Assembly: GCF_000003605.2 (NCBI RefSeq)
Contig: NW_003142306.1
Span: forward strand, 675,451 to 719,055
Source: Saccoglossus kowalevskii
Lineage: Eukaryota > Hemichordata > Enteropneusta > Harrimaniidae
DNA: 43,605 nt
Direction of reading: 5' to 3'
The notes below the pieces were generated by a model that was not told the origin of the DNA, ran no database searches, and worked only from the letters and a program-made list of their open reading frames with translations. The translations under genes were made by a program, and so were the position numbers. Positions within the stretch are counted from its first letter, which is position 1. The number at the start of each line of letters is the position of its first letter. Shown here piece by piece: positions 3,493 to 40,527 of this stretch.

Positions 3493-3816
3493 ACAAATGT
3501 AATGACCTAACTGATGTTATCCCTGTAAGTAATTGCGTGATTACATCATCGACTATGCCAGATAAGTCATGTAGATGGGAAATAATCGCCACTGACGGTG
3601 AAAAGCTTGTCCTACGGTTTAGTGAGATTGGCTTACTAGTAAATGATGTTCTAAAAGTTTACTCTGGTGAAAAACCTCCAGATGATGAGACGAATGAACA
3701 AGAGAGGATTGATAGAGGTGACACGAATAAGGATATCATAATCCGCGACAAGAAAGCTTGGATCGTCTTTAAATCGTATGGATTAAACTCTGGGTTTAAG
3801 GTACATATCCAGGCAA
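3493..3816 (+). CDS. Exon: CUB domain 1
   Basis: The acceptor is TTCACAG and the donor GTAAGT; the exon is phase 1-1 and codes for about 107 residues. It starts DKCND, has CRWEI in the position of the CUB C-x-W motif, and ends [20 protein letters not shown], the usual final strands of a CUB domain (W-hydrophobic-F-S...GF-hydrophobic). It has three cysteines rather than four and lacks the usual P-x-Y loop before the second one. It is the first coding exon seen, and no EGF precedes it within the window. Confidence 0.8.
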
Positions 3817-6800
3817 GTAAGTATGTGTTACTTATGTCTACAATCAGCTTCTGTGTACTACGGTTTACACTAACATACATGTATCGCGATAGGGATTCAC
3901 TCTATCAATGTTTGGTCATATGTTGGCAACATGGAAAACACGGTAACGGAATATCCATGACAAATTGGCGAACACATCTTAGTGAGCGAAATTTTGGTTT
4001 TCATGTTTGATGTATAATTACCATCATCGCATTACATCACAAGAGAATATATCGAATACCGTGATAATCTGACCAAATTAAGGTAGCATCGTTTTTTCTC
4101 TATTTTTTTGGTTTTTAATACACATAACAAAATTACATGCATATGTTATATAACTTGTATGTTTTTTATTAAGAGTCAGTAATTTTAAATTTGAATATCT
4201 TGTATTCCACTTCTAAGGTAATAATTTTTGCAACAACAACCCTTGTGAAAATGGCGGTACATGCATAGATGAGGCATTTAGTTACCGATGTGACTGCCGT
4301 GCAACTTTTGGTGGAGATAACTGTGAGATAGGTAAGTCTGACGAGTATAGAAAAGTGTGAACAATGAATAATCTATCAAATGTGTTTTTACAATGACTAC
4401 TAAATCCCAATGAGCTCGTCACAATTTTAATTTAAGAAATCACTAATTATAAATGACCCCAAGATGACCCCAAGATTTGGCCATTGCATCATACTTGTAT
4501 TTGTCTTGTATATCATGGCAGTTCCGTGTAATAAAGCGGTTTAATAATTTCCTTTATCTCTATAATGTGTAAACTAATGGTAATCAGTTACGCAAATGAG
4601 CCAGAACGCTCTACAAACTTGAATACGTGCATTCTAATTACGATCACTACGTTAGTTTTCAATCTCCAGAAGCTGTGGTACGGACAGGATATCAGGTTCG
4701 TGACCCTACCCTAATGTGAAGTAGTTTTCAATTTTTCATCGCCAAAAAATGATTATACCCATTTATTAAATTTGACTTTGTAGGGTCACTCAATTAAATA
4801 TTTTCTATCTACAACTTTAATCATATAGGGCCTACTTTGTTAAATTTCCAATAAAAAATGTTTATTATGATTACAATGACTAGAACTAATACAGTGCTTT
4901 CTCTAAATCACGCTGTATATGTCAATATGAACAATGAATAACTTTATATAACTTGCCTCTTTATAGGTCGTTGTGGCAAAACGGGAATCACTTTACCTGC
5001 TGGTAGTTCGGTGAATATTTCCTCACCAGATTATCCTAACAACTACACCAAAGATGAAGATTGTTTGTGGAATGTCCACAGTCCCGATGGATCCGCCATC
5101 TTTTTCCGTTTTTTCGACTTCGAGACAGAAAGAGATTTTGACAAGGTGGAGATTGGATATGGCACTAGACACACAGACGAAACTAAAACTAATAACTACT
5201 CTGGGTTGATTAATTCGAAAAAGTACAGCGTCATCGATGACTCGAATATTTGGATTAAATTTACGTCAGATTCTGGTAATAGTAGAAGAGGGTTTATTCT
5301 TGGCGTTACAGCAGGTGAGGTTTCCATTCAGACCGAAGCCAATCTTTTGGGTTTTAATTAATGGATATGTGAAACCGGTTGCTATGGACATTAATTTCGG
5401 GAATAATTATGTATTTTGGGGTTAAAAAGTTATTTTACAAATGCAAAAAGATTTTTAATGAGAAGTTGCCAATGACACAAAAAGCCATCCGGATTGATTC
5501 TGGATCCGGTTGCCATGGAGATGAAATATTGGCAGGGATTCTTCACCATTGTCACATTGTATAATTCGTAGATTGAATAAGCTATACAATATCTTTTTAA
5601 TTTGATCGCACATGTTTACGTTCTACGCAAAAAGACTGGTTGGCAAAAATATAGTTCGTTTGTTTTTGCTTTCAGATATCGACAATTGTTTGTCAATTCC
5701 TTGTCAAAATGGAGGTACATGTAGTAATCAAATGTTCAAGTTCACGTGCGACTGTCCCATTGGTTATGAAGGAGTATCATGTCAATACGGTAAGGGTATA
5801 CAGTGAAAGGCACAACACTAAGGCTTTGCTTATGAACGTATTCATATAAATCTGCAAAAGCCGACCGTCAGCTTTCATTCAAGTTTAAATATTCAACAGA
5901 GATTGGCTAAACACTGTTCTACGCTCACAATGTACGCACATGTCTTCGCGTGGCATAGGAACGCGGAACGCCCACATACTCAAAATGAAGTTATTGCTGA
6001 TTGGATAATGTTGAACTATTTCATTAATATGAACTAGAACTTAAACGCTGAAGTCACAATGTCGAATTGATCAATTTTATTTATAAACTGTATATTTATA
6101 ACACGTTGATAACGATCATAGTGTTATGCCCTTTATTGTTTAAGACAGACATACAGACAGACAAGCCGGTAGCCAGGACGGCTCTCTGTTGGTTCTTACG
6201 ATACTTACATTAGACAGACTTCGGAAAATTACTTTATGTACTTTCTGGGTAGTCTTGAAGATTTGTAAGAATTGAACCCCGAGAATAAGTAAAGTTGAAT
6301 GCTTCACAGACTTGAATGTTGAAATATTCAGCCGATCGAAACTTGGTAATGCGTAGTGTCGACGCAATGGTATCAACACTCAAAAAAGAATTAGGCACAG
6401 ACTCAAGCAAACCGGAATGAGATATGTCCGAAATCTGTACTCAAAGAATTACCTTGTACAAAGCCACGGCCACAAATTCAGGTTTTGGGGCATTTTTTTC
6501 ATTTGTTTCCACCTAACTACAGGTGTGACCTGCCTGGCAAGTTTGAACAAAATCGAACAACGAAAAAAAACACAAAAAAGTTAAAAAGCTGATCCTGACG
6601 AAAATGTTACCCCAACCTTCCGGATCAACGTTTTTTGCAACGAAGAGTGGTAAAGTACAATAGCAACTTCGAGCACTCACTCAGGAAGAGTAGAATGAGA
6701 TATATCTGCGATTTTGACTTCAAGGTCTATAGGAGGGGATACACATGGCGCAAAAATATGGCATCTATAGTGCAGGTGTGGCCTGTATGTTAAGTTTAAA

Positions 6801-9800
6801 CGTAATCGGCCAAGCCAAAAAAGGAAAAGAGTTAATACGAGTTAATACGTACATGTCTTCTTTTGAGTACGTGAGCGTTCTGCAGTTGTTATGTCCATTA
6901 AAGTATAGGCACGCATATGAGGGCAAAGTTGAGCTCTTAACCGTTCACTTTCAAATATTTGAATTTTCTGACGTCCGCTATAACGTCACCCAATTATTTG
7001 TTTATAGATCAGTGTGGCAAAGACACAATTGATGTGTATCTTGGGAAAAAACCGTACACGCTGACATCGCCAAATTACCCCGATCTCTCGTGCGTCTGGA
7101 AGATACGCGCTAATACCGGAACAGAACTAGTGGTGACCATTGTTAAAAACAATATGGCCATGACGATTGGTTCAGGTGATGACCCGGATGATACTAGTAG
7201 TATCGGGAAATATGAAGATTCTACAAATCAGATAACTATTTCAAACACCAATATGTGGATTAGTTTTACTACCAGTAGTTTTGGAAGTAGTGGATTAAGT
7301 GGATTCAAAATAGAAGTTATAGCAGGTACAGTTATACTTTATTCCAAAACTCACAAAATTCTCTCGAAAATCCCCCAAAATTATAAATTTAATTATCGTT
7401 GAACAGAGATTTCTGTTTTTGTATGAAAACTGTCGAACACAGTAACGCTGTTTCAAATATTGATACAGGAACTTGGGCGTTCACGGTCTTATGTTTGTTT
7501 TTAGTGTTTGTCGTTTTTTATATGTATACAGTTTTGGCTTCACGTTGACAAAATTTCGGAGCTCTATCACAAGTGGAACATACTATAAAAAATACTCAAA
7601 TACATGTAATCCACATAGCTCGCCGATTTAAAAATCGTTTTGTCCAATCCAGGGTGTTGCTGCTCAAAAACAAGTTTATTTTTAAAAAGTTTGTACTCCC
7701 CACTTGGAGTACGTAAAAGTAAACGGCTACTGTTTGGAACAAAGAAACCTTCCCAGTAAACGGTAAATTGTTTAGAATACCGTTATACACCTTAACCTGT
7801 TCTATGTGTTCTACTCACTTTATCGACAGTATTTATCAGTAGCGCCCAAGTACGTGGTTGGAATGTGTCCATTCTATTAATATCTTTTACACATTCTATT
7901 TTTACTCTGCTTAAAACATATTTGATCTCATTCATTCGTCATTACATACTATGCGTCTCTAATAGGAAACGCTGTCACCGTGACAACAGTCACAACCTAG
8001 TGCTGATTAGTAAGCGTTGTTTTGTATCAGACTTTCGCGTGCCGGTCCGCAAAAATACTAGTAGTAAATGAATGACGTCACAATGTGACGGTCTATAAAT
8101 AGTAAAATGTGCTGTATTTTCTATATAGATGTAGACGCCTGTGTTTCCAATCCCTGTCTCAATGGTGGTATATGTAATAACGACCCATTAGTCTATCGAT
8201 GTGCGTGTGGAGTGGCGTTTGATGGTAGGAATTGTGAAATAGGTAAGTATCACGTTCTCATCGATAGGAAACATTTGTTGTCGATATGCATTTATTTTCA
8301 AGTGATGTGTGTACGAAACAACACAAACGTCAAAGTTAACTTTTTTTAATTTTTCACTTATTTCTTTTTCAAAAAATAAGATCATGAAATGCAACGTAAT
8401 TTCAGACCCACACCTACCGTGACTGTATTAATATTCACTCGATTTTCGTTCATAAGTAAAATCAACTATAGAAGTTAAAATCCAAGTAAACATGCAAATT
8501 ATCAATAGAACTCGTTATTTCACATTGTTTATAACCGTCGACCAGACGCTTCCTACGTTTTTTGGCGAGGATTTGTCTTCGCTCTTCATTAACAAAATAT
8601 ACTATTGAATAAGTAAAGACAACACTACAGGCAGCGCAGATGTTGTGAGAGGGTGGTGTAAGGGAGTCGCTGTTAAATGTGAACGTAGACGTCGTGAATT
8701 GTGGAATATCCCGGGGTAGATCTTACCTTCTGCAGACGGTTTTTGCCTAACTATCAATACATTATATTGTATCCACAAGCATCATGGTCTATCGCTAAAT
8801 CACCATTGTGTATCATCCATGCAGCATAATGTATCTGCAATGCATTATTGGATACTATCTATATTATAAAGCACTTATTATGTATTTCCGATGCGATATG
8901 ATGCATTATTATGTTCTGTGTTCTCTACAGATCGGTGCGGGGAAAGAAATATGGTAGTCGGGTTTAAAACGAGCGCCACTATACAGTCGCCGAACTATTC
9001 TGACAGACTGAACTATGGTTCCAATGAAGACTGTGCCTGGCGTATTCACGCCGCTGAGGGCGCGGAAATCGTGCTGGTTATTCGAGATTTCCGCACAGAA
9101 GAGAAAATCGACACGTTGAGAATTGGTTCGGGGACTGTAGTTGATGCAAAACAAAAAGGGACTCCTTTCAGTGGTAATCTGAAAATACGGGAAATTGTAG
9201 TACCAAATAAAGATGCATGGATGCGGTTTGAGAGTGATGATGTTGACAACTATCCTGGGTTTTGGATAGAAGCAGTGGCTGGTAAGTTTATATCGCAAAG
9301 CATTTCTGTACATCTAAGTACGTTACTATAAACTACAAATCTGGTGATACAATACTTGACATCAAATCTTTGGGAGTGGAAGCATCAAGCACTCTTTTGA
9401 CACGGAATACACTATCATATAAAGAGGGTGGGCAAGGGGGTAGCTGATACAGTTTTACGGGAAATAAAAAGGGCCTTTTACAATTTACAAAGAAAAAAAG
9501 ACGTTTTTACAGTTTACAGTGATAAAAAATGGAACATTGAATGGTCCGAAGAGCTCTCCGACTCAAATTCTCCGCCATTGCTGCGCCGCGTGTAGAGACG
9601 CATGCGCATATTACCCTCGTAATGCTCTTCATTCGATTAGAGGGCCTTTCTTTACGTCTTGACATTCAATTTTGCAGTGAATTGTGTCATCTAGTCGTTT
9701 TACAGTTTCAAAAATGTAATTTCCCTGGATTATTCTTTACGATTTTTTTTATTTGGATGTAAATTCTTGTACGTACCGAGAAAATGACACATTTTTACAG

Positions 9801-33800: not shown

Positions 33801-36800
33801 AACTTCATGACTGTTATTAGACTGCAACTTTTATAACGTTATATCGTTTTCGCAGCGTAAACTGTTTATCCTTTTCAGTAATATCATGCGTTAATATCAG
33901 TCGTTCTGTGTGGTGCTTGATGAATATTTTATATCGTAATTATACCACATGACATTTGCGTTCATTTCCAATGAATTCATCGCACTATTATCTATTAAAC
34001 CTATTTTTAATCAAACAAATTTCAGACAAGATGCCTGTTCTGGTTACAGTGGTTTACCGTTCACTTGCCGATATACTTCCACCGACATTCGTAGAGAAAG
34101 AGTGAGTATATTGATCCTGTTTATATTTCGTATTTAGTGATAATGACTGAAACCCATCGTAAATTTGAACTATTTTGTTATTAATTGGCAATTTCTTGCA
34201 ATGATATAGTTAGTATTGGATCCACAAAACTTTTACATATATGTTATAAAGTTAATTTGAAAACATAACTTTAGCCTTAATCTGCTTTTTAACCATTAAC
34301 TTATTAAGTTGAAAGTGTATAGACATCACTATCTCACTAGATGTGGAAGCACGTTCATTTTCATGAACTTACATGGTTAGGTTACAACCATTATACACGA
34401 CATACATTGTAGTATGCTACAATTAATACAACCTAATTTTCACCTTTGTCTATAGGATAGTTGTAAAGAAGTGGATGGGTACCTACCGTACAAATGCAGT
34501 TGCAAACAAGGTCAACTCTGATGTGTTGTCTGCCACTTTGTATCCAGAAAATATCAGACGAACAACAAGGTTCACTACTCCTATTACTATGAAATTCTAT
34601 CATAGGGAGGTAAGAATACAGGGAAAACTTCTTCACATTTTCCAAACAGTATTCCTTCGTGTGTTCCACTTATCGTGTTTTGTGGCCATTATTAAGTTGT
34701 GTTTGGTTGCTATTATAACAGAGCCCACGGTTTATGTGAGCAACCGGCGACCACATGTAAACGTCACACACTGTTCCCAAACTTTGCTTTGTATAGTGTT
34801 ACAAGTGATAATCATCAGAATTGAGGTTTAGTTCCTATATATATTTGTGCCTCCAAGTTAGGTACTTTTTAATGTGTCTGGAACCGGGTCTATAGTTTCA
34901 GCATTCATTACTTTACTTATCCATATAAAAAAGAACTATAGTCTAAGAATATACATATACAATTTTCGCAAAATTGTCTGAAAGAGGTATCCATTTTTGC
35001 ATCTTAGTTCCTCGAATGGTCTGGAGCTCCTGGCAGCAGAATCTATCATGCATTCAGGGTAGTCCCAGGGGTCGACTGGATGAGAACAGTTTTAATTCCA
35101 TCGCCATATATATTACATGTACCTAATTTGCTTATATGTATATACAGAATATACATATATGTTATATACATAACACAGAATGTTACCAATTGACGTTGAT
35201 GCGACTATAGACTCGTGTATTGTTTGACGCCACAGTACTGACAATAAAACTGCTCCTTCTTAATTGAGCCAGTCTCTGTCAGGCTAGGAAAGTTCAATGT
35301 TTACTGACCTTGTGGAAATTCGGCTCAACAAACGTGTTCAATTAGTGATATCAGACACTGTCGCTTATGGAAATTTTTGTTAGTGGTTGTGTGACATTTA
35401 TTAAGACATGTGATAGATCCAAAGGTTTTTGGGACATTTGTATAATAGGCCTAAGTTAATAAATGATTTACAGTTTGTTAATATCGATTTTTTTTACATA
35501 ACAGCCTGGTACTAAACCTGTGTGTGGATTTATGGTATATGGACACACCAATGGGTAAGTTACATAGCTTCAGAATCACGATGTTGTCGTGAAATGTCAA
35601 TAGCCATCATTATTATACATCTGTCGTGCCGTAATTTTGCGGTATTTTACAGGGTATTTTCATCCTACCATATAAAAATGCGAACGTTTTGGATTTCGGC
35701 ATTCCCATGATGTATCGTTGGAAGGAAAAGTTGTATAATAACAAGGTTATTACGAGGACACCTCAAAGTATGCAATCAGACAGTAGGCCGTCGCATCGAC
35801 CTCCGCTGCGCGTCGGTCGATATTCCCGCTGTACTGTCTTCAAGCATACTTCGAGGTATCCTCGTAATAACCTCATATTATATTTATATGTTCATGTCTA
35901 TCTACATGGACAATGTAACTGAAACTAGTCATCTAAACGTTATTTGAACGTTTAAAATTTTGAAATTTTAACATGACGTTCCAGCAAAGGCCAACTGTGA
36001 CGTTGATCGCATACATATCATTCAAAATACTTACTACAAATATAATATCGTACATGAGCCTATGATGAATAGTGTATATTATTATTTTATAATTTGATTG
36101 GTTTCCAGAATATGGAGTAAAGATGGATGCTGGGAACTATTCACTGATTACGATGAAAACTTCACAGTTTGTCAGTGTGATCACCTCACGGAGTTTAGCG
36201 TTGTCATGGAGATATATACAGATGAGGTAATAAACCATCGCTTTTAACGTACTAATGCTGTTTTACATCTGACCAAATAATAATGCATCTCGCAGACTCT
36301 ATATAAGAAAGCGCGTTCTTATCGGTTGCGCGCGATTTAAAGCGCGGTGGTCGTCGCGCAGCGCGTGTTCGAATTTCATGTAAATAAACAATGTATTTTA
36401 CACGCGTTGTATACGTCGCTATGAGTCCCATATCGAACAGAACGCGGCACGACGACTGTCGCGCTTTAAACATAAGGCATATTAATGCTACACTGTTATC
36501 TTTTACAGCTGTACTCACAAAACACTCAGTTATGGTTTATTAAAATTGCTCTTGGAATCGGCATATTTCTCCACTGCGTAACAAGCGCACTTCTACTTTT
36601 ATCTGGGTAACTATTTTATATATATGTATGTAATTATTACGCAATAATATGTAATGTTATGTTATCGTAAGTATTCATGCAATATAACGTAATAATATAA
36701 TTGGTCATTAGTATGTAATCAATGTATAAGTATGTATAGTATAAAATCATGTAATAGTATGTAAATATTGTATCAGTATGTTATCAATGTATTAACATGT

Positions 36801-39800
36801 AATATATACATTAGCATGTAATTAATGTATTATTATGTAATCGTGTAATCAGACTAATGATTCCACAGTTATATGTCATATCAATTTTACGTATGTAGGT
36901 TACGCAGTGATTATTACTTCGTCTTGAAGAATATGTCATCATCACTCTTACTCTGGATATCTTTCGTCTTTGTTGCTCTTCTAGTTGAAGAAAAAAGTGT
37001 AAGTTTCGCTAAAAAAATATCGACTAAACTATTCACGTATTGTTATAGTAATCTTGTATTACGTTTTACAGTGGAATATTACAAATGTTGCATATGTATT
37101 TTGTGTTGACAGGTATCGTGTAAATTTATCGCTACGGGAATTCATGCATTGTTTTTGTGCTGTTGTTCTTGGATACTGATAGATGCCATACATCTGTTCC
37201 TCAGAATGAAGTCATTTATATATAAGGGTTTACGAACTAGGTATGTGGAAAAATGCTGAACATTATTGAATATTATATTCAGTGCCAATTTTTCAGAACT
37301 AGAATATCATAGTTATATTATGAATAAACATTTTATGAGAATGAATGAATTTGAATCGATAAATGGAAGAATGAATGAATTTGAAATAATAAATGAATGA
37401 ATGAATGAATGAAGAATTGAAATAATAAATGGATGAATGAATGAATGAATTTGAAATAATAAATGAATGAATGAATGAATTTGAAATAATAAATGAATGA
37501 ATGAATGAATTTGAAATAATAGAGTTTGTTTTAATCAGGGGTTCAATAACGTGACTGCAAAACCGAATTATTCCAATTTGTGTTGTGTTCGCTCAATTGT
37601 CCTCAACAGACTGCGTTCATTAGTCTAGACAAACAAATTCATGGTATATATTACGATACATTATTGTCTTTCAGAGTTGCTTATCTTGTTGCGGGATGGC
37701 TTGTTCCTGTTGTGTTTGTTACTGTCTTTGCTGTTGGGAGTGGTATCGAATACAGAAATGCCAAACAGTACGTAAACTATAAGTTCAGTATTACCTGAGT
37801 GTTATTGTATTGCATCTTTGTCCATATTCCAAAAGACAAACAGAATAGATTTTTCGTCAATCATAGCGAGTATCACTTGTTTTATATCATAGCTTTTTAA
37901 CAAGAACATTTTGATCATGTATCGATTATATTACAGATGCTGGGTCGTAACTGGTACACTCTCACTAGCCGTGATTTTACCAGCATTAGTGTTGTTTACG
38001 GTGAGTAAGCTAAGTGCACGTATGTTTCAGCATATGGTTTACCATATACATTCGTGTTGAATGTGACCCATAGGTAATTTTTATTTCACATTTCAAATCA
38101 TTGCCTCACTTACATCGTGTTATTTCTTTGTCAGTACGAATATTTTAAATTCACGATGTCCACGAGCCTTGTTGTGGCTACTGCCTGTCAACTACGTAAT
38201 GCTTTTCTAATCATTTCCCTAAAGAGTTGTATTTTTTTGTTTAAAAATGAAAGTATGGTGATTGTATTCAAGTTATATGCATTTTCTGACCAACGTATTG
38301 AGGTTCCGTTTTCTGTGTATACATCCATTGATAGCACCAAGTTATGGACAACTAATATTTTGATTGAACAATGTATGTTTAGAGTGTTATCATACGTTTT
38401 ATTTTTATTTATCTGAATTTTTTTCTTAAAGTGTCGTCGAAATTCTTCACATGTGTAACAATTTCTTACGAGTTTTGTCTTAGTATCATTCAGCCATATT
38501 GTAATCATTTATTGTATATTACAATATCTTGACAAACATGACAAAGGACAAGACAAGACATGAACACATACATTAGTTTGTACATCCGGGACTTCAAACC
38601 ATTTACCATTCTAAGCTAATGATTTATATTATTTACATTTTCAGGCAACGATAGTTTTTCTTGTAATGGCGTATCGGTTGTTGTCTAAACACAAAACTAA
38701 GAGTCAACTTATTGAGTACAAGAAAACTTGGTATGTGAATGTTATATTACGAGTGATATGTCAGTATACAGTGGAATGTAAATTGCAATTAACGTCGTAA
38801 ATAACTTTCTGTTAATCTATAGTGTTCCATGAAAGTAATTGTTAATCATCGCATGAGTCTAATCGGAGTTTTCACTTACTAGTAATTGCCATGGTTTATT
38901 TCTGTGATAGTTCTTATTCAGCCAGTGACCTCTTTTATACAATTTGATTGATGTTGAAATTTAACACTTTATTTATCTGTTTCATAGGGTCGACATTCGT
39001 TCACTTATTATCGTGTTTCTGTTATTCACGTTGAGTTGGATTGTTGGTATAGGATCTACTTCAAGAATGGATCTCGAAATTATCAGTTATTTCTTTGCCT
39101 TTCTTATTTTCTTTGAGGTAAGTAAGATTACAGTTTTCAAGTTCAAACGTCTCTGGAAATCCTGAACAAAAATGGAATTTTAAAACTCAGTCACGATATG
39201 ATATACCAAAGTTGCATCCAAATTAAGTTAAGATTGTAGAAATTAGAAATTTAAGATCGCCTTTTATAATACGTAACAATAAACTCACTAAGTTAGGAAG
39301 CTGTATTGCCCCTGTGGGTCAGTTACTTTGTAGGTGAGTTTCTCAATGAATGTGGTGACAAATAAGGGCATGATATCTACACTTCTAATGTTTCTTATTT
39401 TCGCAACAAAACAACGTCATGTTTACACATTCTATATTTTATCTTGTTAACTGGGAGTGTTGTTTCACATATCGTGAGGGCAATTTCAATACAGACATAT
39501 GAAAGACAAACAAGGCAACTTACAATTACTAGCAATACAAGTAGCATTTGACTATCCGCAAACATTTATCTTATACACAGAGTTTTTTGAGACTGGGTCT
39601 AGGATACATAACATCGTACACAGTAGCCGATGTTAGCTCAACTTATGAATGCTCTTTCACCAACAAATATTTTATATTTTCCAGGCTTCTATCGTCTTTT
39701 TAAGCTACTGCGTATTTAATGAGGAGGTAAGAACAACACTAAGCATATGCGCACTGCTTTTTAAACTATTCATCTGTTGTTGTATTCCAAATTTTCTGAA

Positions 39801-40527
39801 TTGCAAAGCACTGAATACACAAGCTACTGCTTTGCAGATGAACACTTTGAGATCAGACACCTCCATCTAACCCTTAGACTAATATGCTAAGAATCGTTAG
39901 CAACATTAATTTTGCTTAGCTCTTTTCTTACTCTTTCCTTCATTCACGTGGCGTATTACAAATTACCTAAGAACACTTACCCTCCGGCACTCTGCTCACA
40001 CTAAAGTTCGCTTTAAATTTCAGCTTATCATTGCACTTCGTGTTCGCTTGTGTGCTGGGCTAGAGTGGCAGGATGCTTGGGAGGACTTGAAGAAAATGGA
40101 GCAACAAAGAATGGATTTACTGAAGCAAGCCAAAGAAGAAGTGGAAAGAAAGAAAATACAGAAGTATGAAGCAAAACATAGAAGATCTACATCGAAGGAT
40201 GGCATGCATGGCTTATATGTAGTGGTAGGTTTTGATATATCAACACTCATATATTTTGTACATTAAAATAATTATATTTATAGATTGTACAAATATCAAG
40301 CGATGTAATGATTGTTGTTGATACAAGTTCAGTGATTAATGAGTCTTTCAAATTCCGCAAGTTTGGTCTCCTGGTACTATTAGTAATTACTATAATAATT
40401 AATTATGGAATATTCTGACATATATTCACAGGCAAAGCGGAGTAAACATACAAGAAACCACATGGAAATCCCAAGATATAGCTCAGAAGACTTGGAGAAT
40501 GAAGATCTTACCGAAAGTAGAGTATGA
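3493..40527 (+). CDS. Large lectin-rich adhesion GPCR (45 exons, 5' incomplete)
   Basis: The gene span is given here; coding exons are listed separately. Forty-five exons with GT/AG borders join into one frame of 2,603 residues plus stop, with matching phases at every junction. The order is 7 CUB and 6 EGF alternating, C-type lectin, fucolectin-like, SUEL lectin, unknown module, EGF, hevein-like, 3 sushi, EGF-CA, HRM, GAIN, GPS, 7TM, tail. HRM-GAIN-GPS-7TM is the core of adhesion GPCRs: surface receptors that self-cleave at the GPS and signal through a tethered agonist. The long ectodomain with four lectin-type modules suggests binding of glycans on cells, matrix or microbes (inference). The start codon and signal peptide are not visible. 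It could be two neighbouring genes fused in my model, but uninterrupted phase-1 joins argue against this. The weakest joins are the 2.9 kb intron before 19068 and the start of the exon at 27395. Confidence 0.85.
4218..4331 (+). CDS. Exon: EGF domain 1
   Basis: This 114-base, phase 1-1 exon codes for one EGF module: [20 protein letters not shown] followed by a C-D-C turn and a final cysteine before EI. The six cysteines have the C-x(4)-C-x(5)-C-x(8)-C-x-C-x(8)-C spacing of the classic EGF fold. The donor is GTAAGT. The length is identical to the five other EGF exons of the CUB/EGF block. Confidence 0.88.
4967..5314 (+). CDS. Exon: CUB domain 2
   Basis: Phase 1-1 exon of about 116 residues. 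It begins RCGKTG, has the strand [20 protein letters not shown] typical of CUB (SP-x-YP-x-x-Y...C-x-W), and then DKVEIGYG and NIWIKFTSD, ending in a glycine-phenylalanine strand (GFILGV). An acidic residue cluster before the second cysteine and the DKVEI aspartate fit a calcium-binding CUB. Only the first disulfide pair is present. NIS and NYT are possible N-glycosylation sites. Confidence 0.9.
5676..5789 (+). CDS. Exon: EGF domain 2
   Basis: A 114-base, phase 1-1 exon starting [20 protein letters not shown] and ending in a CDCPIGYEG turn and a last cysteine. The D-I-D-N start resembles calcium-binding EGF modules, although the central hydroxylation-type Asn/Asp motif is weak. Acceptor TTTCAG, donor GTAAGG. 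Confidence 0.9.
6405..6830. repeat. Old tandem duplication in intron after EGF 2
   Basis: GGAATGAGATATGTCCGAAA near 6412 and TAGAATGAGATATATCTGCG near 6691, then GGTGTGACCTGCCTGGCAAG near 6521 and GGTGTGGCCTGTATGTTAAG near 6774, are similar in the same order. The offset is 250 to 280 bases with small indels. The copies are diverged. Confidence 0.45.
7008..7325 (+). CDS. Exon: CUB domain 3
   Basis: Phase 1-1 exon of about 106 residues beginning DQCGKD, with [20 protein letters not shown] and a final strand GFKIEVIAG. Like CUB 1 it lacks the loop between YP and the second cysteine (PDLSC instead of P-N-x-Y-x(4)-C), so it is the shortest of the seven and unlikely to keep the usual calcium ligands (inference). 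Two cysteines only. The donor is GTACAG, a weaker site than its neighbours. Confidence 0.85.
8129..8242 (+). CDS. Exon: EGF domain 3
   Basis: A 114-base, phase 1-1 exon. It begins [20 protein letters not shown] and continues through a C-A-C turn to NCEI. Six cysteines in EGF spacing. Acceptor TATATAG, donor GTAAGT. Confidence 0.9.
8931..9281 (+). CDS. Exon: CUB domain 4
   Basis: Phase 1-1 exon of about 117 residues. It begins DRCGERN, shows [20 protein letters not shown], then DTLRIGSGT and AWMRFESDD, and ends GFWIEAVAG. The acidic N-E-D before the second cysteine, the DTLRI aspartate and the later serine-aspartate match the layout of calcium-binding CUB domains. Two cysteines. It is followed by the largest intron of the CUB/EGF block, which is full of mobile sequence. 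Confidence 0.9.
9418..9944. mobile_element. Element E (527 bases, GC-rich inverted ends)
   Basis: The left end TATAAAGAGGGTGGGCAAGG is the inverted counterpart of the right end CCTTTGCCCCCCTCTATA. The interior contains repeated TTTTACAG and TACGTTGTACGA-like words. No transposase is encoded. It is directly followed by element A copy 2. Confidence 0.55.
9943..10135 (+). mobile_element. Element A copy 2 (diverged)
   Basis: The ends are AATTGCACTCACTAATGAC and GAGGGCGCTATTATA. The interior shares GTGTAGTCGTTCGTC and GAGATCAAAACAATACCAACG with the copies at 27952 and 30328. It abuts the right end of element E at 9944. Confidence 0.6.
10311..10382 (-). repeat. 72-base inverted repeat, left arm
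   Basis: By eye this is identical over 72 bases, in reverse, to 11830-11901. It contains CCATTCGTCCCGGTGTTATC and CACGAGACTCCAGCTTGTCT. Read on the minus strand, the arm is followed by GGTAAGT, a good splice donor. The perfect match implies recent duplication or gene conversion. Confidence 0.9.
10495..10544. other. Assembly gap (50 N)
   Basis: Fifty N within the transposon-like region between CUB 4 and EGF 4. A round 50 usually means a gap of unknown true size. Confidence 0.95.
10745..10935 (+). pseudogene. Decayed second copy of ZAD-like frame
   Basis: ATGTCGTCACATTTATGTCT, AGAGAATAAACAACCGCTCA, CTTGAAATCGCCTTGCCCGA and ATTTGCAATGACGACCG line up, in order, with the intact frame at about 11322-11560. 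Stops and small indels break the reading frame, so it cannot be translated. It is a remnant of a neighbouring tandem copy. Confidence 0.65.
11063..11668 (+). CDS. ZAD-like zinc-binding reading frame (transposon or repeat gene)
   Basis: Open frame of 201 residues. [15 protein letters not shown] and [13 protein letters not shown] give two C-x-x-C pairs about 60 residues apart, with a leucine-rich middle. This is the layout of the ZAD (zinc-finger-associated) domain, usually followed by C2H2 fingers. Here the rest is a basic, serine-rich tail ([13 protein letters not shown]) that runs into a hairpin, so it is either truncated or the first exon of a longer gene. It lies inside an intron of the receptor, between the 72-base inverted repeats. 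Whether it is expressed is unknown; the start at 11063 is only the first ATG. Confidence 0.5.
   Translation: MKNCAGGILSDATPEKHRVTVHSCISTPKKYIHIVADDYCRLCSCSLRVCGQLKSCVNLFKPGKAGGITYGNRLSNLIQCDVVKGATLSSHLCLVCKRKIDNAEKSANNVKQWREIVSHSNISQPVNERVKRAALKSPARPRSSSKRRSITFSHSICNDDRSSNVLSDNFLRNHFDLIYGWRAPTLRSDEPQSLNTLNTRC
11633..11694. repeat. Perfect 18-base-stem hairpin with inner palindrome
   Basis: CCACAGTCCCTCAACACC at 11633-11650 pairs perfectly with GGTGTTGAGGGACTGTGG at 11677-11694. Inside the loop CTCAACACC-C-GGTGTTGAG forms a second stem. The sequence lies at the end of the ZAD-like frame and would break or end it. Confidence 0.85.
11830..11901 (+). repeat. 72-base inverted repeat, right arm
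   Basis: Reverse complement of the left arm at 10311-10382 without a mismatch by eye. On the + strand it is followed by GGTAACA, a possible donor, and preceded by CCACCAATCAC, a CCAAT-type word. The two arms therefore look like outward-facing promoter and first-exon copies (inference). Confidence 0.9.
12150..12191. mobile_element. Element A end fragment
   Basis: GTCACTAGAGGGCGCGATTTATA at 12168-12190 is a complete A-type terminus, with a CGTCATATAAGCGCCC stretch before it. I see no matching left end nearby, so it is a fragment. The terminus itself is listed in two parts: GTCACTAGAGGGCGCG and ATTTATA. Confidence 0.5.
12416..12529 (+). CDS. Exon: EGF domain 4
   Basis: A 114-base, phase 1-1 exon. 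It begins [20 protein letters not shown] and ends with a CECQASYGG turn and TCEI. NCS is a possible glycosylation site. The donor is GTAATA, less ideal than in the sister exons. Confidence 0.9.
13389..13736 (+). CDS. Exon: CUB domain 5
   Basis: Phase 1-1 exon of about 116 residues. It begins [10 protein letters not shown] and shows [19 protein letters not shown], then [16 protein letters not shown], and AWVSFESDM, ending GFVIQVSAG. This is the most typical CUB of the set, with the acidic calcium-site pattern intact. Two cysteines; NIT is a possible glycosylation site. Donor GTATGT. Confidence 0.92.
14370..14483 (+). CDS. Exon: EGF domain 5
   Basis: A 114-base, phase 1-1 exon. It begins [20 protein letters not shown], with [14 protein letters not shown] at the end. 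The usual N-G-G between cysteines two and three is N-D-G. NYT is a possible glycosylation site. Donor GTAAGT. Confidence 0.9.
14715..15041 (+). CDS. Exon: CUB domain 6
   Basis: Phase 1-1 exon of about 109 residues. It begins [10 protein letters not shown], has [20 protein letters not shown] and ends GFYLKVIGG. The acidic residue usually found just before the second cysteine is threonine here, so calcium binding is doubtful. Two cysteines; NIS and NWT are possible glycosylation sites. Donor GTATGC. Confidence 0.9.
15396..15509 (+). CDS. Exon: EGF domain 6
   Basis: A 114-base, phase 1-1 exon. It begins [20 protein letters not shown] and ends through a C-T-C turn to NCEI. Acceptor TTTTCAG, donor GTGAGT. 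It is the last of the six equal-length EGF exons. Confidence 0.9.
15805..16137 (+). CDS. Exon: CUB domain 7
   Basis: Phase 1-1 exon of about 111 residues. It begins [10 protein letters not shown], has [20 protein letters not shown], and ends in a GFQVLVKA strand. The SP of the usual S-P-x-Y-P is replaced and a third cysteine sits next to the first. It is followed by a 2.9 kb intron with no EGF exon, so the CUB/EGF alternation stops here. Donor GTGAGT. Confidence 0.85.
16138..19067. other. Intron between CUB block and lectin block
   Basis: I see no coding exon in this 2.9 kb intron. About 16300-17000 looks like old degenerate repeat sequence. A diverged copy of inverted-repeat element B lies at 18108-18250. 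The expected EGF after CUB 7 is absent; I searched for the C-N-G-G pattern without success. Confidence 0.6.
18108..18250 (+). mobile_element. Element B copy 1 (diverged)
   Basis: GAAGCGGTGAGTCGTCATCT, TAGCGTGTCATTGTTTACAA and AAGCGACTACCCATGAGCC match, in order, the copies at 24188 and (reversed) 25432. The right end is decayed. Confidence 0.65.
19068..19383 (+). CDS. Exon: C-type lectin domain, N-terminal part
   Basis: Phase 1-2 exon of about 105 residues. It carries [32 protein letters not shown], an FWFDACQ strand and [14 protein letters not shown]-x-x-A-x-x-x-C, GG-x-L-A and W-x-x-W...EPN are core C-type lectin motifs; EPN is the signature associated with mannose-type calcium-dependent sugar binding. 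The long-form N-terminal cysteine pair is missing, so this is a short-form domain. NVT and NQT may be glycosylated. Confidence 0.85.
19660..19736 (+). CDS. Exon: C-type lectin domain, C-terminal part
   Basis: A 77-base, phase 2-1 exon reading [14 protein letters not shown] and then [14 protein letters not shown] is the typical last strand with the final conserved cysteine of a C-type lectin domain. The usual WND calcium motif is not seen; the matching region reads KIKAND, so the second half of the calcium site is partly changed. Confidence 0.8.
20073..20288 (+). CDS. Exon: fucolectin-like (FTP) domain, N-terminal part
   Basis: Phase 1-1 exon of 72 residues. [41 protein letters not shown] match the eel fucolectin/tachylectin-4/pentraxin-1 pattern (N-V-A...VDG...W-x-V-x-L-G...I-x-x-V-x-hydrophobic), a relative of the F5/8 type C fold. 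Members bind fucose with calcium. Acceptor TTCCAG, donor GTGAGT. Confidence 0.8.
20464..20559 (-). mobile_element. Element D copy 1 (truncated)
   Basis: GTTATTACGAGGATACCGAA, AGTATGCACGAAGACAGTAC, TATCGACCGACGCGAAGCG and a final ACTGTCTG match, reversed, the 130-base element at 35744. The second arm of the hairpin is missing. Confidence 0.7.
20782..20979 (+). CDS. Exon: fucolectin-like (FTP) domain, C-terminal part
   Basis: Phase 1-1 exon of 66 residues completing the previous one. It contains [34 protein letters not shown] and LEMCEFQVF. The C...GRYV...L-x-x-CE-hydrophobic-x-V end is diagnostic for this lectin family. NST is a possible glycosylation site. Confidence 0.85.
21142..21370 (+). 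pseudogene. Possible decayed retroelement frame
   Basis: An ATG at 21142 opens a 46-residue frame ([20 protein letters not shown], then [15 protein letters not shown]). After a shift a second frame reads [20 protein letters not shown]. The acidic then basic make-up recalls ORF1 or gag-like proteins, but I see no zinc knuckle or polymerase. It sits in an intron and does not fit the receptor. Weak call. Confidence 0.25.
21474..21761 (+). CDS. Exon: SUEL / galactose-binding lectin domain
   Basis: Phase 1-1 exon of 96 residues carrying a whole domain. It begins [20 protein letters not shown], then [29 protein letters not shown] and [16 protein letters not shown]. The A-x-YGR motif, the late C-x(5)-C pair and the closing hydrophobic-Y-x-C match the sea-urchin-egg lectin (SUEL) fold seen in rhamnose-binding lectins and in latrophilin receptors. 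That fold is known in other adhesion GPCRs, which supports the gene model. Donor GTAAGT. Confidence 0.9.
22593..23030 (+). CDS. Exon: unrecognised ectodomain module
   Basis: This phase 1-1 exon is the longest of the gene (438 bases, about 146 residues) and I do not recognise its domain. It begins CCDIYDIV and ends IRQCPRDG, so cysteines lie only at the two edges and could close the module. Between them it is mostly predicted beta-strand with an acidic first half and a [11 protein letters not shown] and LIWKVDN second half. Position between lectin modules and EGF says extracellular. It may be a diverged beta-sandwich. Acceptor TTTTACAG, donor GTAAGT, and the frame is kept with both neighbours. 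Confidence 0.75.
23163..23411 (+). mobile_element. Element A copy 3
   Basis: Left end AAATCGCACCCTCTAGTGAC and right end ATCGCTAGAGGGCGCGACTT are inverted repeats about 250 bases apart. The inside shares CATTCAAATCGT and AACGACTACAGCG with other copies. It lies in the intron after the unrecognised module. Confidence 0.75.
23955..24071 (+). CDS. Exon: EGF-like domain 7
   Basis: Phase 1-1, 117-base exon. It reads [20 protein letters not shown], then [14 protein letters not shown]. The cysteine spacing is EGF-like, but one extra cysteine lies in the last loop and the N-G-G is R-G-A. It is one codon longer than the six EGF exons of the CUB block, so it is probably not part of that duplication series. 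Confidence 0.8.
24188..24739 (+). mobile_element. Element B copy 2 with long G-rich interior and gap
   Basis: It starts TTTAAAGCGGGGGAGTCGTC and ends GACGACCCTACCGCTTTAAA, an inverted pair. The left 100 bases match the other B copies (CATTGTTTACAAACAAGCG, ACCATGAGCCGTTTTTAGC). A 50-N assembly gap follows, then a run of C and a G-rich interior in which C-C-C-G-A-G-A and G-G-G-G-G-T-like blocks recur. The true length is unknown because of the gap. Confidence 0.65.
24293..24342. other. Assembly gap (50 N)
   Basis: Fifty N inside element B copy 2, just before a C homopolymer. The low-complexity neighbour is the likely cause of the break. Confidence 0.95.
25108..25284 (+). CDS. Exon: hevein-like cysteine-rich module
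   Basis: Phase 1-1 exon of 59 residues. It reads [14 protein letters not shown], then [17 protein letters not shown] and a CDCPNC end. The RCG...C...CCS-x-x-G-x-CG...C-x-C pattern resembles the hevein/chitin-binding type 1 fold, and [10 protein letters not shown] modules of this kind occur in invertebrate deuterostome lectin proteins. The aromatic residues that stack on chitin in plant hevein (two Trp and a Tyr around CCS-x-W-G-W-CG) are lysine, arginine and asparagine here, so chitin binding is doubtful. Confidence 0.7.
25432..25590 (-). mobile_element. Element B copy 3
   Basis: TTAAAGCGGGAGGGTCGTCA at the left and GCGCAGGTGACGACTTAAGC at the right are inverted ends. Between them lie CGCTAAAAACGCAAAGGTTC and CGCTTGTTTGTAAATAATGA, the reverse complement of the interior of copies 1 and 2. 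Length about 159 bases, no coding capacity. Confidence 0.75.
25742..25921 (+). CDS. Exon: sushi (CCP) domain 1
   Basis: Phase 1-1 exon of 60 residues, easy to miss because no long frame starts upstream. It carries a [11 protein letters not shown] start, [20 protein letters not shown] and [10 protein letters not shown]. The V/M-x-F-x-C...Y-x-hydrophobic-x-G...C-x-x-G-x-W-x(4)-P-x-C pattern is the sushi signature with all four cysteines. The acceptor is a T-rich tract ending CATCTGAG and the donor is GTAGGA. It joins in frame with both neighbouring exons. Confidence 0.8.
26081..26203 (+). mobile_element. Element C copy 1
   Basis: TTTGATATGGGACCCATAGT, AACGCGTGTAAAATACATTT, GTGAAATTCGAACACG and GCGCGACGACTTT match, reversed, the copy at 36335. 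It is about 120 bases and has lost part of its ends. Confidence 0.7.
27395..27640 (+). CDS. Exon: Thr/Pro linker and sushi (CCP) domain 2
   Basis: Phase 1-1 exon of about 82 residues. [13 protein letters not shown] forms a short linker that is probably glycosylated. [32 protein letters not shown] and a [12 protein letters not shown] end make up a sushi module with four cysteines. The 5' border is the least certain of the gene: an acceptor ending at 27346 (TTCCAG) would keep the same frame and add 16 residues with four cysteines (YYSCTCLCP). I chose 27395 because it has the better pyrimidine tract. Donor GTGAGT. Confidence 0.8.
27952..28180 (+). mobile_element. Element A copy 4
   Basis: Left end AATCGCGCCCTCTAGTGACA and right end GAGGGCGTGGTTTATT. 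The inside carries CGTTCAAATAGTTCACAG and GTGTTTGGTTGTGTAGTCG, shared with copies 5 and (reversed) 1. It lies in the intron between sushi 2 and sushi 3. Confidence 0.75.
28573..29148. repeat. 29-base minisatellite, about 20 copies
   Basis: The unit is ATATACATATGAAGACTTAC plus ACAATCAAT. I count 20 copies. Variants (GATGAC, ATTAATAC, CAAAAT) mark a higher-order repeat: ATTAATACAT recurs at 28721 and 28984, and the units after it repeat in the same order. It lies in the intron just before sushi 3. Confidence 0.92.
29381..29557 (+). CDS. Exon: sushi (CCP) domain 3
   Basis: Phase 1-1 exon of 59 residues: [33 protein letters not shown] and [10 protein letters not shown]. All four sushi cysteines and the G-x-W...P-x-C end are present. 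It follows directly after a minisatellite in the same intron. Acceptor: long T tract and GACAG; donor GTAAAT. Confidence 0.88.
29726..29896 (+). CDS. Exon: calcium-binding type EGF domain
   Basis: Phase 1-1 exon of 57 residues. It begins [20 protein letters not shown], then [20 protein letters not shown] and a late cysteine, followed by a linker ending GEWCKNEG. D-x-D-E-C and N-T-x-G-S-Y-x-C-x-C are the EGF-CA signature, including the asparagine of the hydroxylation site. Donor GTACGT. Confidence 0.9.
30165..30278 (+). CDS. Exon: hormone-receptor motif (HRM), first half
   Basis: Phase 1-1 exon of 38 residues: [20 protein letters not shown], then [16 protein letters not shown]. The G-x-hydrophobic-x-W...CP-x(4)-G pattern with the following exon forms an HRM domain, which sits just before GAIN in many adhesion GPCRs. 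Donor GTAAGT. Confidence 0.8.
30328..30578 (+). mobile_element. Element A copy 5
   Basis: Left end GGTCGCGCCCTCTAGCGACA and right end CGTTAGAGGGTGCTAGTCA. The inside shares CGTTCAAATCGATAGGTGTT and ACTACAGATCAAAACGATAT with copy 4. It splits the two halves of the HRM domain at the intron level. Confidence 0.75.
31073..31167 (+). CDS. Exon: HRM, second half
   Basis: Phase 1-0 exon of 31 residues: [20 protein letters not shown] and then [12 protein letters not shown]-x-C...G-x-W...C finishes the HRM motif. It is the first exon of the gene's 3' half to leave the phase-1 rule. Donor GTGAAT. Confidence 0.8.
31416..31601 (+). CDS. Exon: GAIN domain, part 1
   Basis: Phase 0-0 exon of 62 residues. 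[20 protein letters not shown] and [12 protein letters not shown] form a helical stretch like GAIN subdomain A of adhesion GPCRs. It connects HRM to the autoproteolysis fold. Assigned by position and helical pattern, not by a strict motif. Confidence 0.75.
32117..32185 (+). CDS. Exon: GAIN domain, part 2
   Basis: A short phase 0-0 exon of 23 residues ([19 protein letters not shown] is its end). Acceptor TTTTACAG, donor GTGAGA. It continues the GAIN helical subdomain; the W after a run of polar residues is common there. N-V-F-R at the start completes the helix from the previous exon. Confidence 0.75.
32695..32818 (+). CDS. Exon: GAIN domain, part 3
   Basis: Phase 0-1 exon of 41 residues: [20 protein letters not shown], then [16 protein letters not shown]. 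The layout (helix, then a strand with S-hydrophobic-E-T-N-N-hydrophobic) fits the end of GAIN subdomain A passing into subdomain B. NWS may be glycosylated. Acceptor ATCTATAG, donor GTATGA. Confidence 0.75.
33411..33566 (+). CDS. Exon: GAIN domain, part 4, with polybasic site
   Basis: Phase 1-1 exon of 52 residues. It carries [20 protein letters not shown] and [12 protein letters not shown]. The RRRRS run is a strong candidate for a furin-type cut, lying in a Gly/Ser-rich loop upstream of the GPS. NST and NES may be glycosylated. Donor GTAAAA. Confidence 0.78.
34026..34101 (+). CDS. Exon: GAIN domain, part 5
   Basis: Phase 1-2 exon of 25 complete codons plus split ones: [21 protein letters not shown] strand plus L-x-x-I-L-P is typical of the GAIN beta-rich subdomain, where a strand with hydrophobic residues precedes a loop. 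The ends match the following exon in phase 2. Donor GTGAGT. Confidence 0.78.
34456..34609 (+). CDS. Exon: GAIN domain, part 6
   Basis: Phase 2-0 exon of about 52 residues. [14 protein letters not shown] and [12 protein letters not shown] are the strands that lead into the GPS: N-S-x-V-hydrophobic-S-A and I-T-hydrophobic-x-F-x-H are standard features of adhesion GPCR GAIN domains. Acceptor TCTATAG, donor GTAAGA. Confidence 0.85.
35505..35554 (+). CDS. Exon: GPS, first part
   Basis: A 50-base, phase 0-2 exon: [17 protein letters not shown]. The cysteine corresponds to the first of the four GPS cysteines (C-x-F/W...). Acceptor CATAACAG, donor GTAAGT. Confidence 0.85.
35744..35873 (+). mobile_element. 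Element D copy 2 (130-base near-palindrome)
   Basis: AGGTTATTACGAGGACACCT at the start pairs with AGGTATCCTCGTAATAACCT at the end, and pairing continues through AGTATGC and ACAGTA. A CGACCTCCGCTGCGCGTCGG core lies in the middle. It is a foldback-type non-autonomous element in the intron between the two GPS exons. Confidence 0.8.
36109..36226 (+). CDS. Exon: GPS cleavage site and tethered agonist
   Basis: Phase 2-0 exon of about 40 residues: [20 protein letters not shown], then [21 protein letters not shown]-x-x-G-C and C-x-C-x-HLT-x-F are the complete GPS signature. Cleavage would fall between L and T of HLT, and TEFSVVM would be the tethered agonist. All four GPS cysteines are present across the two exons. 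NFT may be glycosylated. Confidence 0.93.
36335..36471 (-). mobile_element. Element C copy 2
   Basis: TTTAAAGCGCGGTGGTCGTC at the left and CGACGACTGTCGCGCTTTAA at the right form inverted ends. The interior is the reverse complement of copy 1. The ends also resemble those of element B (TTTAAAGCG...GTCGTC), so B and C are probably families moved by the same transposase. It sits in the intron before TM1. Confidence 0.75.
36509..36606 (+). CDS. Exon: transmembrane helix 1
   Basis: Phase 0-2 exon of 33 residues. [20 protein letters not shown] and LLLLSG form one hydrophobic helix in the position of TM1 directly after the GPS. Donor GTAACT. Confidence 0.88.
36612..36850. repeat. Degenerate ATGTAAT/GTAT-rich repeat
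   Basis: Words such as TATGTAAT, ATCAATGTAT and AGTATGTAA recur about every 15 to 40 bases without a strict period. It fills the intron between TM1 and TM2 and appears to be decayed low-complexity sequence. Confidence 0.6.
36899..36998 (+). CDS. Exon: transmembrane helix 2
   Basis: Phase 2-0 exon of about 34 residues. It reads [20 protein letters not shown] and [16 protein letters not shown]...hydrophobic helix is the usual first intracellular loop and TM2 of secretin/adhesion receptors. Acceptor TATGTAG, donor GTAAGT. Confidence 0.88.
37113..37240 (+). CDS. Exon: transmembrane helix 3
   Basis: Phase 0-2 exon of about 43 residues. [20 protein letters not shown] and [15 protein letters not shown] match TM3 of class B2 receptors (C...hydrophobic-H-x-x-x-L...W-hydrophobic-hydrophobic-hydrophobic-D/E). 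The early cysteine is the one that pairs with the second extracellular loop. The usual glutamate is aspartate. Three cysteines in a row (CCC) are odd. Confidence 0.9.
37341..37521. repeat. Compound TGAA microsatellite with 30-base period
   Basis: Blocks of ATGAATGAATGAATGAAT are separated by TTGAAATAATAA, giving a period near 30 bases and about six units, with the first ones degenerate (TTGAATCGATAAATGG). It lies in the intron between TM3 and TM4. Confidence 0.9.
37675..37767 (+). CDS. Exon: transmembrane helix 4
   Basis: Phase 2-2 exon of about 31 residues: [20 protein letters not shown], then [12 protein letters not shown]-hydrophobic-hydrophobic-P is the TM4 signature of the family. The donor GTACGT at CA is chosen because it restores Q-C-W-V with the next exon, giving the conserved C-W of extracellular loop 2. 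Confidence 0.88.
37937..38000 (+). CDS. Exon: extracellular loop 2 and start of TM5
   Basis: A 64-base, phase 2-0 exon: [22 protein letters not shown] is the conserved loop-2 motif (partner of the TM3 cysteine), and the P in the hydrophobic helix is TM5. Donor GTGAGT. Confidence 0.88.
38645..38730 (+). CDS. Exon: rest of TM5 and intracellular loop 3
   Basis: Phase 0-2 exon: [20 protein letters not shown], then QLIEYKKTW. The end of TM5 is followed by a basic loop, fitting a G-protein-facing segment. Donor GTATGT. Confidence 0.88.
38988..39117 (+). CDS. Exon: TM6 and start of TM7
   Basis: Phase 2-0 exon of about 44 residues. [20 protein letters not shown] is TM6, with L-S-W-hydrophobic-hydrophobic-G in the family position. 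It is followed by an extracellular loop and [13 protein letters not shown], the first half of TM7. Acceptor TTCATAG, donor GTAAGT. Confidence 0.9.
39685..39726 (+). CDS. Exon: end of TM7
   Basis: A 42-base, phase 0-0 exon reading [14 protein letters not shown]. The F-x-x-Y-C-V-x-N-E-E end is the highly conserved finish of TM7 in adhesion GPCRs. Donor GTAAGA. Confidence 0.9.
40024..40224 (+). CDS. Exon: cytoplasmic tail, charged helix
   Basis: Phase 0-0 exon of 67 residues. [10 protein letters not shown] is the membrane-near start. Then a long run rich in E, K, Q and R ([20 protein letters not shown] and [13 protein letters not shown]) is probably one extended helix or coiled coil. The donor could be GTAGGT after GTG (chosen) or GTAGTG six bases earlier; both keep frame. 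Confidence 0.82.
40432..40527 (+). CDS. Exon: C-terminal end with stop codon
   Basis: Last exon, 31 residues and a TGA at 40525-40527. It reads [20 protein letters not shown] and [10 protein letters not shown]. The last three residues S-R-V match a class I PDZ ligand (S/T-x-hydrophobic at the C-terminus). Acceptor ATTCACAG. No further open frame continues. Confidence 0.85.
   Translation, partial: AKRSKHTRNHMEIPRYSSEDLENEDLTESRV

Follow-up and report, generated by a model that had tools for sequence, protein, structure and literature searches.

The gene described here looks like a real and very large cell-surface receptor gene of the acorn worm Saccoglossus kowalevskii, and we read it from its sequence, at a probability of about 0.6, as one gene for an adhesion GPCR that would cleave itself and would use most of its lectin folds to bind something other than sugar. 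The window, by which we mean the whole stretch of DNA analyzed, measures 43,605 bases and forms the end of a contig of 719,055 bases; the assembly as a whole has 572 Mb, and the gene occupies 3493-40527 on the + strand. The mitochondrial DNA also points to Saccoglossus, probably S. kowalevskii: the single COX1 match lies on a contig of 17,037 bases on which, with genes named by eye, COX1 runs against the majority of genes, ND2 stands before ND1 and CYTB comes after ND5, and within COX1 one AAA codon occupies a Lys site and ATA occupies sites where Ile is conserved. PMC3121625 and PMC2697986 report for Saccoglossus kowalevskii an inverted COX1, a transposed ND1 or ND2, AAA read as Lys and ATA read as Ile, and for hemichordates and Xenoturbella that ND5 and CYTB are neighbors. 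Its 45 exons form a single open frame of 2,603 residues plus a stop codon, without an internal stop. Exon 1 (3493) opens mid-codon and the 5′ end of the gene is missing; upstream of the window, no strong module exon was found in the readable part, the remainder being partly N. Seven CUB and six EGF exons alternate at the start of the protein and are followed by a C-type lectin, an F-type lectin, a SUEL domain, an orphan exon, an EGF, a hevein-like module, three Sushi domains, a calcium-binding EGF, an HRM-like domain and then GAIN, GPS and 7TM, with the following positions and evidence:

3493-3816, 4967-5314, 7008-7325, 8931-9281, 13389-13736, 14715-15041, 15805-16137, + strand: CUB exons (within exons 1-13); Pfam CUB, seven stretches over four pieces, E up to 1
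4218-4331, 5676-5789, 8129-8242, 12416-12529, 14370-14483, 15396-15509, + strand: EGF exons (within exons 1-13); Pfam EGF, six stretches over three pieces, E up to 1
19068-19383, 19660-19736, + strand: C-type lectin, exons 14-15; Lectin_C 28.3 bits (cut-off 22.6), mosGCTL-1 E 2.3e-7
20073-20288, 20782-20979, + strand: F-type (fucolectin-like) module, exons 16-17; eel agglutinin 1k12, E 1.2e-4
21474-21761, + strand: SUEL/rhamnose-binding lectin, exon 18; Pfam 40.6 bits (cut-off 31.4)
22593-23030, + strand: orphan module of about 145 residues, exon 19; unmentioned in the sequence-only reading
23955-24071, + strand: EGF-like, exon 20; cysteine pattern and weak PDB matches to EGF domains
25108-25284, + strand: hevein-like chitin-binding-type module, exon 21; amphioxus BbtPGRP3 closest, E 2.1e-9 over 55 residues
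25742-25921, 27395-27640, 29381-29557, + strand: three Sushi domains, exons 22-24; Pfam
29726-29896, + strand: calcium-binding EGF, exon 25; EGF_CA 36.0 bits (cut-off 27)
30165-30278, 31073-31167, + strand: HRM-like domain, exons 26-27; HRM best family, 19.3 bits, E 0.0016, below cut-off 26.2
31416-36226, + strand: GAIN and GPS, exons 28-35; GAIN 54.9 bits (cut-off 26.5), GPS 33.3 bits (cut-off 22.5), HL/T motif
36509-36606, 36899-36998, 37113-37240, 37675-37767, 37937-38000, 38645-38730, 38988-39117, 39685-39726, + strand: 7TM, exons 36-43; 7tm_2 60.2 bits (cut-off 20.6)
40024-40224, 40432-40527, + strand: cytoplasmic tail and stop codon, exons 44-45

The exons were rebuilt with a gene-finder based on codons and splice sites, together with three-frame reading and phase matching by hand. 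The rebuild was made without the exon list of the sequence-only reading, but the ends and totals of that list were known beforehand, and it returned the same totals, 45 exons in one frame and 2,603 residues, and the same missing 5′ end. A strict gene-finder run gave 37 exons, most of which were retained in the final model, and several of the exons from GAIN to 7TM, which the gene-finder missed or misplaced, were set by hand. A low-penalty run with 311 exons was an over-prediction and was replaced by the stricter one, and a 21-nt gene-finder exon at 17710 was omitted as spurious. For exon 17, a start at 20743 was rejected because joining exon 16 to it created a TAA, and the acceptor at 20782 restores both the open frame and the 2,603 residues. 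All 44 introns are GT-AG, a count made with the start of exon 17 at 20743, and the final start at 20782 is likewise preceded by AG; the splice sites are strong, their medians lying close to the 99th percentile among all GT and AG sites. The + strand scored 362.9 with the gene-finder (30 exons above 5), compared with 13.8 for the reverse complement and 3.3-8.6 for five order-2 Markov sequences (no exon above 5 in any of these), a strand and random control that is partly circular because seeds taken from this very strand had served to train the models. The introns also carry repeats. In one of them, two inverted copies of a 72-base sequence (100% identical) enclose about 1.6 kb (10311-11901). 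Between the copies are the first N gap (10495) and an open frame of 210 residues whose zf-AD match is weak and under the cut-off (E 0.016), and the whole element looks like a DNA transposon. Another intron contains, at 28572-29148, about 20 copies in tandem of a 29-base unit (91% matches).

The protein was cut into ten pieces for the Pfam scan, in which CUB, EGF, Lectin_C, SUEL, Sushi, EGF_CA, GAIN, GPS and 7tm_2 came out above their cut-offs. The piece with the F-type module had no Pfam family above the cut-off, its sole match being F5_F8_type_C_2 at E 0.015, and a genome search at E 0.001 gave no F-type copy besides the one in the window. The hevein-like exon 21 reached 12.4 bits with Chitin_bind_1, below the cut-off of 27.8, and the first Sushi (exon 22), scanned alone, reached 20.1 bits, slightly under its cut-off of 20.7; no Pfam match was obtained for exon 20 scanned alone or for exons 20-22 scanned as one piece. 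Exon 19 had no relatives in Pfam or among PDB sequences, and its own copy was the only one in the genome at E 0.001. The HRM-like assignment draws on position, spacing and exon phases in addition to the Pfam match, the phases being the same as in a second receptor on contig C3044 of this genome. The distance from HRM to 7TM, about 320 residues by hand count, falls inside the spacing of 280-330 given in PMC12716839. Pfam, 1k12 and BbtPGRP3 thus bear out the proposal that CUB/EGF repeats and four lectin-type modules stand on an adhesion GPCR with a GAIN-GPS-7TM core, with the HRM match staying below the cut-off.

The C-terminal part has the hallmarks of an adhesion GPCR, as a GAIN-GPS unit adjoins a 7TM of the class B/secretin type. 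The nearest solved relatives of the 7TM include ADGRD1 (E 7.5e-22), ADGRL3 and ADGRG6, and ADGRD1 outscores ADGRL3. Cleavage in adhesion GPCRs takes place at an HL/S or HL/T motif that is followed by a hydrophobic tethered agonist, and 16 residues of exon 35 comprise an HL/T motif and then a hydrophobic stretch. The GAIN exon at 33411-33566 also has an RRRRS stretch (33482-33496), which we take to be furin-like and which might be a possible second cleavage site; the aligned C3044 receptor has no basic run.

A single gene across 3493-40527 is likely on sequence grounds, and the case for it does not come from the open frame along most of its length. Every one of exons 1-13 (3493-16137) is phase 1-1, and among the first 26 introns 25 have phase 1 (nearly all of those before GAIN), and therefore the upstream exons would join in frame regardless and the open frame says little until HRM. 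The same exons would also join if there were two neighboring genes, one for a CUB/EGF/lectin protein and a separate one for an adhesion GPCR that starts between the lectin exons and HRM, and a 50-N gap at 24293-24342, between exons 20 and 21, would suit such a division. This gap adjoins a dispersed repeat with three copies that are 83-88% identical (18106-18245, 24189-24292 and 25456-25584), and the second copy ends at the N gap, which may account for it. A crude, threshold-bound signal-peptide scan returned 18 rows, with candidates that include 3441, 3453, 13316, 13331, 27575 and 29314, but it gave no start-exon candidate at 16137-25108, the N gap within being unread. The candidates at 27575 and 29314 fall between the lectin exons and HRM, where a second gene would have to begin; however, 27575 overlaps exon 23 in a different frame, and the hydrophobic stretch of 29314 is the pyrimidine tract at the acceptor of exon 24. 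The candidates before exon 1 (3441 and 3453) and those that precede exon 9 (13316 and 13331) were set aside by judgement along with 29314, the hydrophobic stretch being in each case such a tract. The C3044 receptor, in which EGF, C-type lectin and SUEL lie upstream of HRM-GAIN-7TM on one strand (in a stretch that is partly N), also argues against a division, and we consider two genes improbable. An assembly misjoin at the N gap, or a decaying or unexpressed gene, is in our judgement very improbable: there are two 50-N gaps, at 10495 and 24293, and the second adjoins the dispersed repeat, but the 45 exons have neither stop nor frameshift and their splice sites are strong.

The second receptor deserves a closer comparison with the gene in the window. 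At C3044:1083159-1103789, an EGF, a C-type lectin (53.7 bits), a partial SUEL (40.8), an HRM (33.4), a GAIN (102.3) and a GPS (30.1) are followed by a 7TM on one strand, as in the window gene; the module order is incomplete because the stretch is partly N, and the 7tm_2 match spans only positions 56-137, near the contig end. Seven of the eight comparable HRM/GAIN exon slots agree in phase between the two genes, exons of 69 nt and 50 nt have the same length in both, an additional intron divides one slot in the window gene, and the HRM-GAIN regions are colinear over 308 columns (20% identical, 27.7 bits). The GAIN exon phases are partly general, because a latrophilin-like gene has some in common with the window gene, the 50-nt exon among them, and its score against the window HRM-GAIN (29.3 bits) is slightly above that of C3044. 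This latrophilin-like gene lies at C1055:184001-214000, where SUEL exons precede the exons for GAIN and 7TM, all of them on one strand. In contrast to the window gene, no CUB, Sushi or hevein-like module was seen among the gene-finder exons at C3044 (the stretch being partly N and CUB and Sushi not Pfam-scanned), and its SUEL keeps a Lys where that of the window gene has a Phe. Judged by its sequence, the C3044 receptor would be an independent case of a lectin stack before HRM-GAIN-7TM, and as such it speaks for one gene in the window. Other adhesion GPCR exons lie on the opposite strand of the window's contig (C3325:25001-85000 and 95001-125000), with HYR-like exons recognized by eye.

If the window holds a single receptor gene, what its four lectin-type modules would bind can be approached through their sugar-contact residues. 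The calcium-dependent, mannose-type site of C-type lectins consists of EPN, WND and an extra Glu; the C-type domain of the window gene retains EPN and ND but not the Trp that would complete WND, nor this additional Glu, nor one of the inner Cys residues, and judged by these residues it is the only one of the four that keeps most of a sugar site. In the SUEL domain, Glu42 is replaced by Met and Lys120 by Phe, while Tyr63, Arg65 and Gly117 are retained; PMC2430599 describes sugar-binding SUEL domains by a Glu at +1 from the first Cys and a Lys in loop 2, the positions of this Met and Phe, and in the SUEL of mouse Lat-1 every substitution tried at Glu42 or Lys120 strongly cut or abolished binding. 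The hevein-like module has, in BbtPGRP3 numbering, Lys for Trp53, Arg for Trp55 and Asn for His62, so that only Ser51 is kept of the four residues (Ser51, Trp53, Trp55 and His62) that mark chitin binding in PMC4610682. There, BbtPGRP3 is an amidase, the two tryptophans are its chitin-binding ones, and a W53A/W55A double mutant showed no binding to chitin beads. The fucose triad of F-type lectins is His52/Arg79/Arg86, within the motif HX24RXDX4(R/K), according to PMC5712786, and in an alignment to 1k12 the module of the window gene retains only Arg79 of the triad, has lost the adjacent Cys pair and does not match the motif.

Other copies in the same genome give these replacements different weights. 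For SUEL, 20 of the 36 other matches listed were examined (mostly top-ranked, and only one of the eight from an array on contig C4360), and among these the Lys is kept in 18/20, the Glu in 5/20, the Tyr in 17/20, the Arg in 18/20 and the Gly in 9/20. For the hevein-like module, 20 of the 39 other matches listed were examined (one of the eleven from an array on contig C120), and these have Ser in 19/20 and His at position 62 in 15/20, no Trp at position 53 (0/20), and at position 55 Trp in 14/20, Arg in 3/20, Gln in 2/20 and a stop in 1/20. The loss of the SUEL Lys in the window gene is thus unusual, given that 18 of the 20 copies examined retain it, and the losses of the SUEL Glu and the hevein Trp53 weigh less because they are common among the other copies. 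The two arrays are near-regular and lie on small contigs, with the hevein-like copies at C120:895-11347 (11 listed, about 1 kb apart) and the SUEL copies at C4360:2301-11800 (8 listed, about 1.3 kb apart), and they reflect either recent tandem amplification or an effect of assembly.

The sequence-only reading had proposed multivalent glycan recognition, with epithelial or innate immune sensing as a speculative example. In this view the four lectin-type modules would jointly recognize glycans of microbes or of the host, and the 7TM would report the contact. Four lectin-type folds do stand on a single chain, the hevein-like module finds its nearest solved relative in an amphioxus peptidoglycan recognition protein, in the chitin-binding domain, and some of these positions also differ among other copies in the genome, so the sites may have shifted their specificity and not died; the absence of known contacts does not prove that there is no binding, because domains can switch specificity. 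However, the residues needed for rhamnose and for chitin binding are replaced and two of the three fucose contacts are lost. The proposal is therefore not supported for the SUEL, hevein-like and F-type modules, and the C-type domain with its EPN and ND is left as a possible sugar binder, and a receptor that reads glycans with all four modules seems unlikely to us. As three of the four lectin-type modules are without known sugar contacts, the receptor more likely recognizes something else, and an antenna that would bind protein or matrix is more likely, on these residues, than one that reads glycans at many points.

Among known receptors, ADGRG6 (GPR126) resembles the window gene in having CUB plus HormR/HRM-GAIN-7TM. 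It also has a pentraxin domain and a SEA domain, neither of which was found by Pfam in the window gene, where CUB alone of these extra modules is present. The latrophilins (ADGRL) are alike in combining SUEL/RBL with HRM, GAIN, GPS and 7TM, but the window gene has no olfactomedin match in Pfam, has lost the sugar residues of its SUEL, carries many extra modules and places ADGRD1 above ADGRL3; the olfactomedin domain of latrophilins may be lost outside chordates, according to PMC2430599. Adhesion GPCRs of amphioxus, an invertebrate deuterostome, share module types with the window gene in their N-termini, among them Lectin C-type, CUB and discoidin domains, whereas the accessible part of that text (PMC2246102) names no hevein-like module and does not give the exact stack seen here. 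Drosophila furrowed and CG9095 combine C-type and F-type lectin domains with CCP/Sushi on a membrane protein, as the window gene does, but they have a predicted transmembrane domain, and GAIN-7TM, SUEL and hevein-like modules are not mentioned in the sections available of PMC5712786; with its GAIN-7TM, the window gene falls outside this furrowed-type class of F-type, C-type and CCP without GAIN-7TM. The same sections report that furrowed acts in cell adhesion and that the sugar residues of CG9095 are degraded in both lectin domains, so CG9095 may serve, by analogy, as a precedent for lectin modules with degraded sugar residues. A literature search in open papers found none with the module order of the window gene.

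We propose that the receptor would act as other adhesion GPCRs do, the difference being its recognition antenna. The GAIN domain would cleave itself at HL/T, and the N-terminal fragment, over 2,200 residues long, would stay attached to the 7TM after cleavage. The rod of CUB, EGF and Sushi domains and the mostly non-canonical lectin folds would bind a protein or matrix partner, and the C-type domain alone might add a calcium-dependent sugar contact. Binding of a ligand, or pulling, would then uncover the tethered agonist, a stretch of ten residues, and so activate the 7TM.

More broadly, we tentatively suggest, as a possibility that we hold with less than even confidence, that a small class of adhesion GPCRs arose in hemichordates when lectin modules of the innate-immune type were gathered before HRM-GAIN-7TM. 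In the member found in the window, these would include a hevein-like module akin to that of amphioxus PGRP, and its sugar sites would then have been largely dismantled, leaving protein-recognition or force-bearing modules in a receptor of more than 2,600 residues, together with an orphan module without another copy in the genome. The window gene widens the range of ectodomains known from adhesion GPCRs, and it is a case where counting lectin modules would mislead about function. Together with the C3044 receptor, which has the SUEL Lys that the window gene lacks, it gives a natural pair of lectin-stack receptors within a single hemichordate genome, in which sugar binding can be set against the use of such folds as protein-binding modules.
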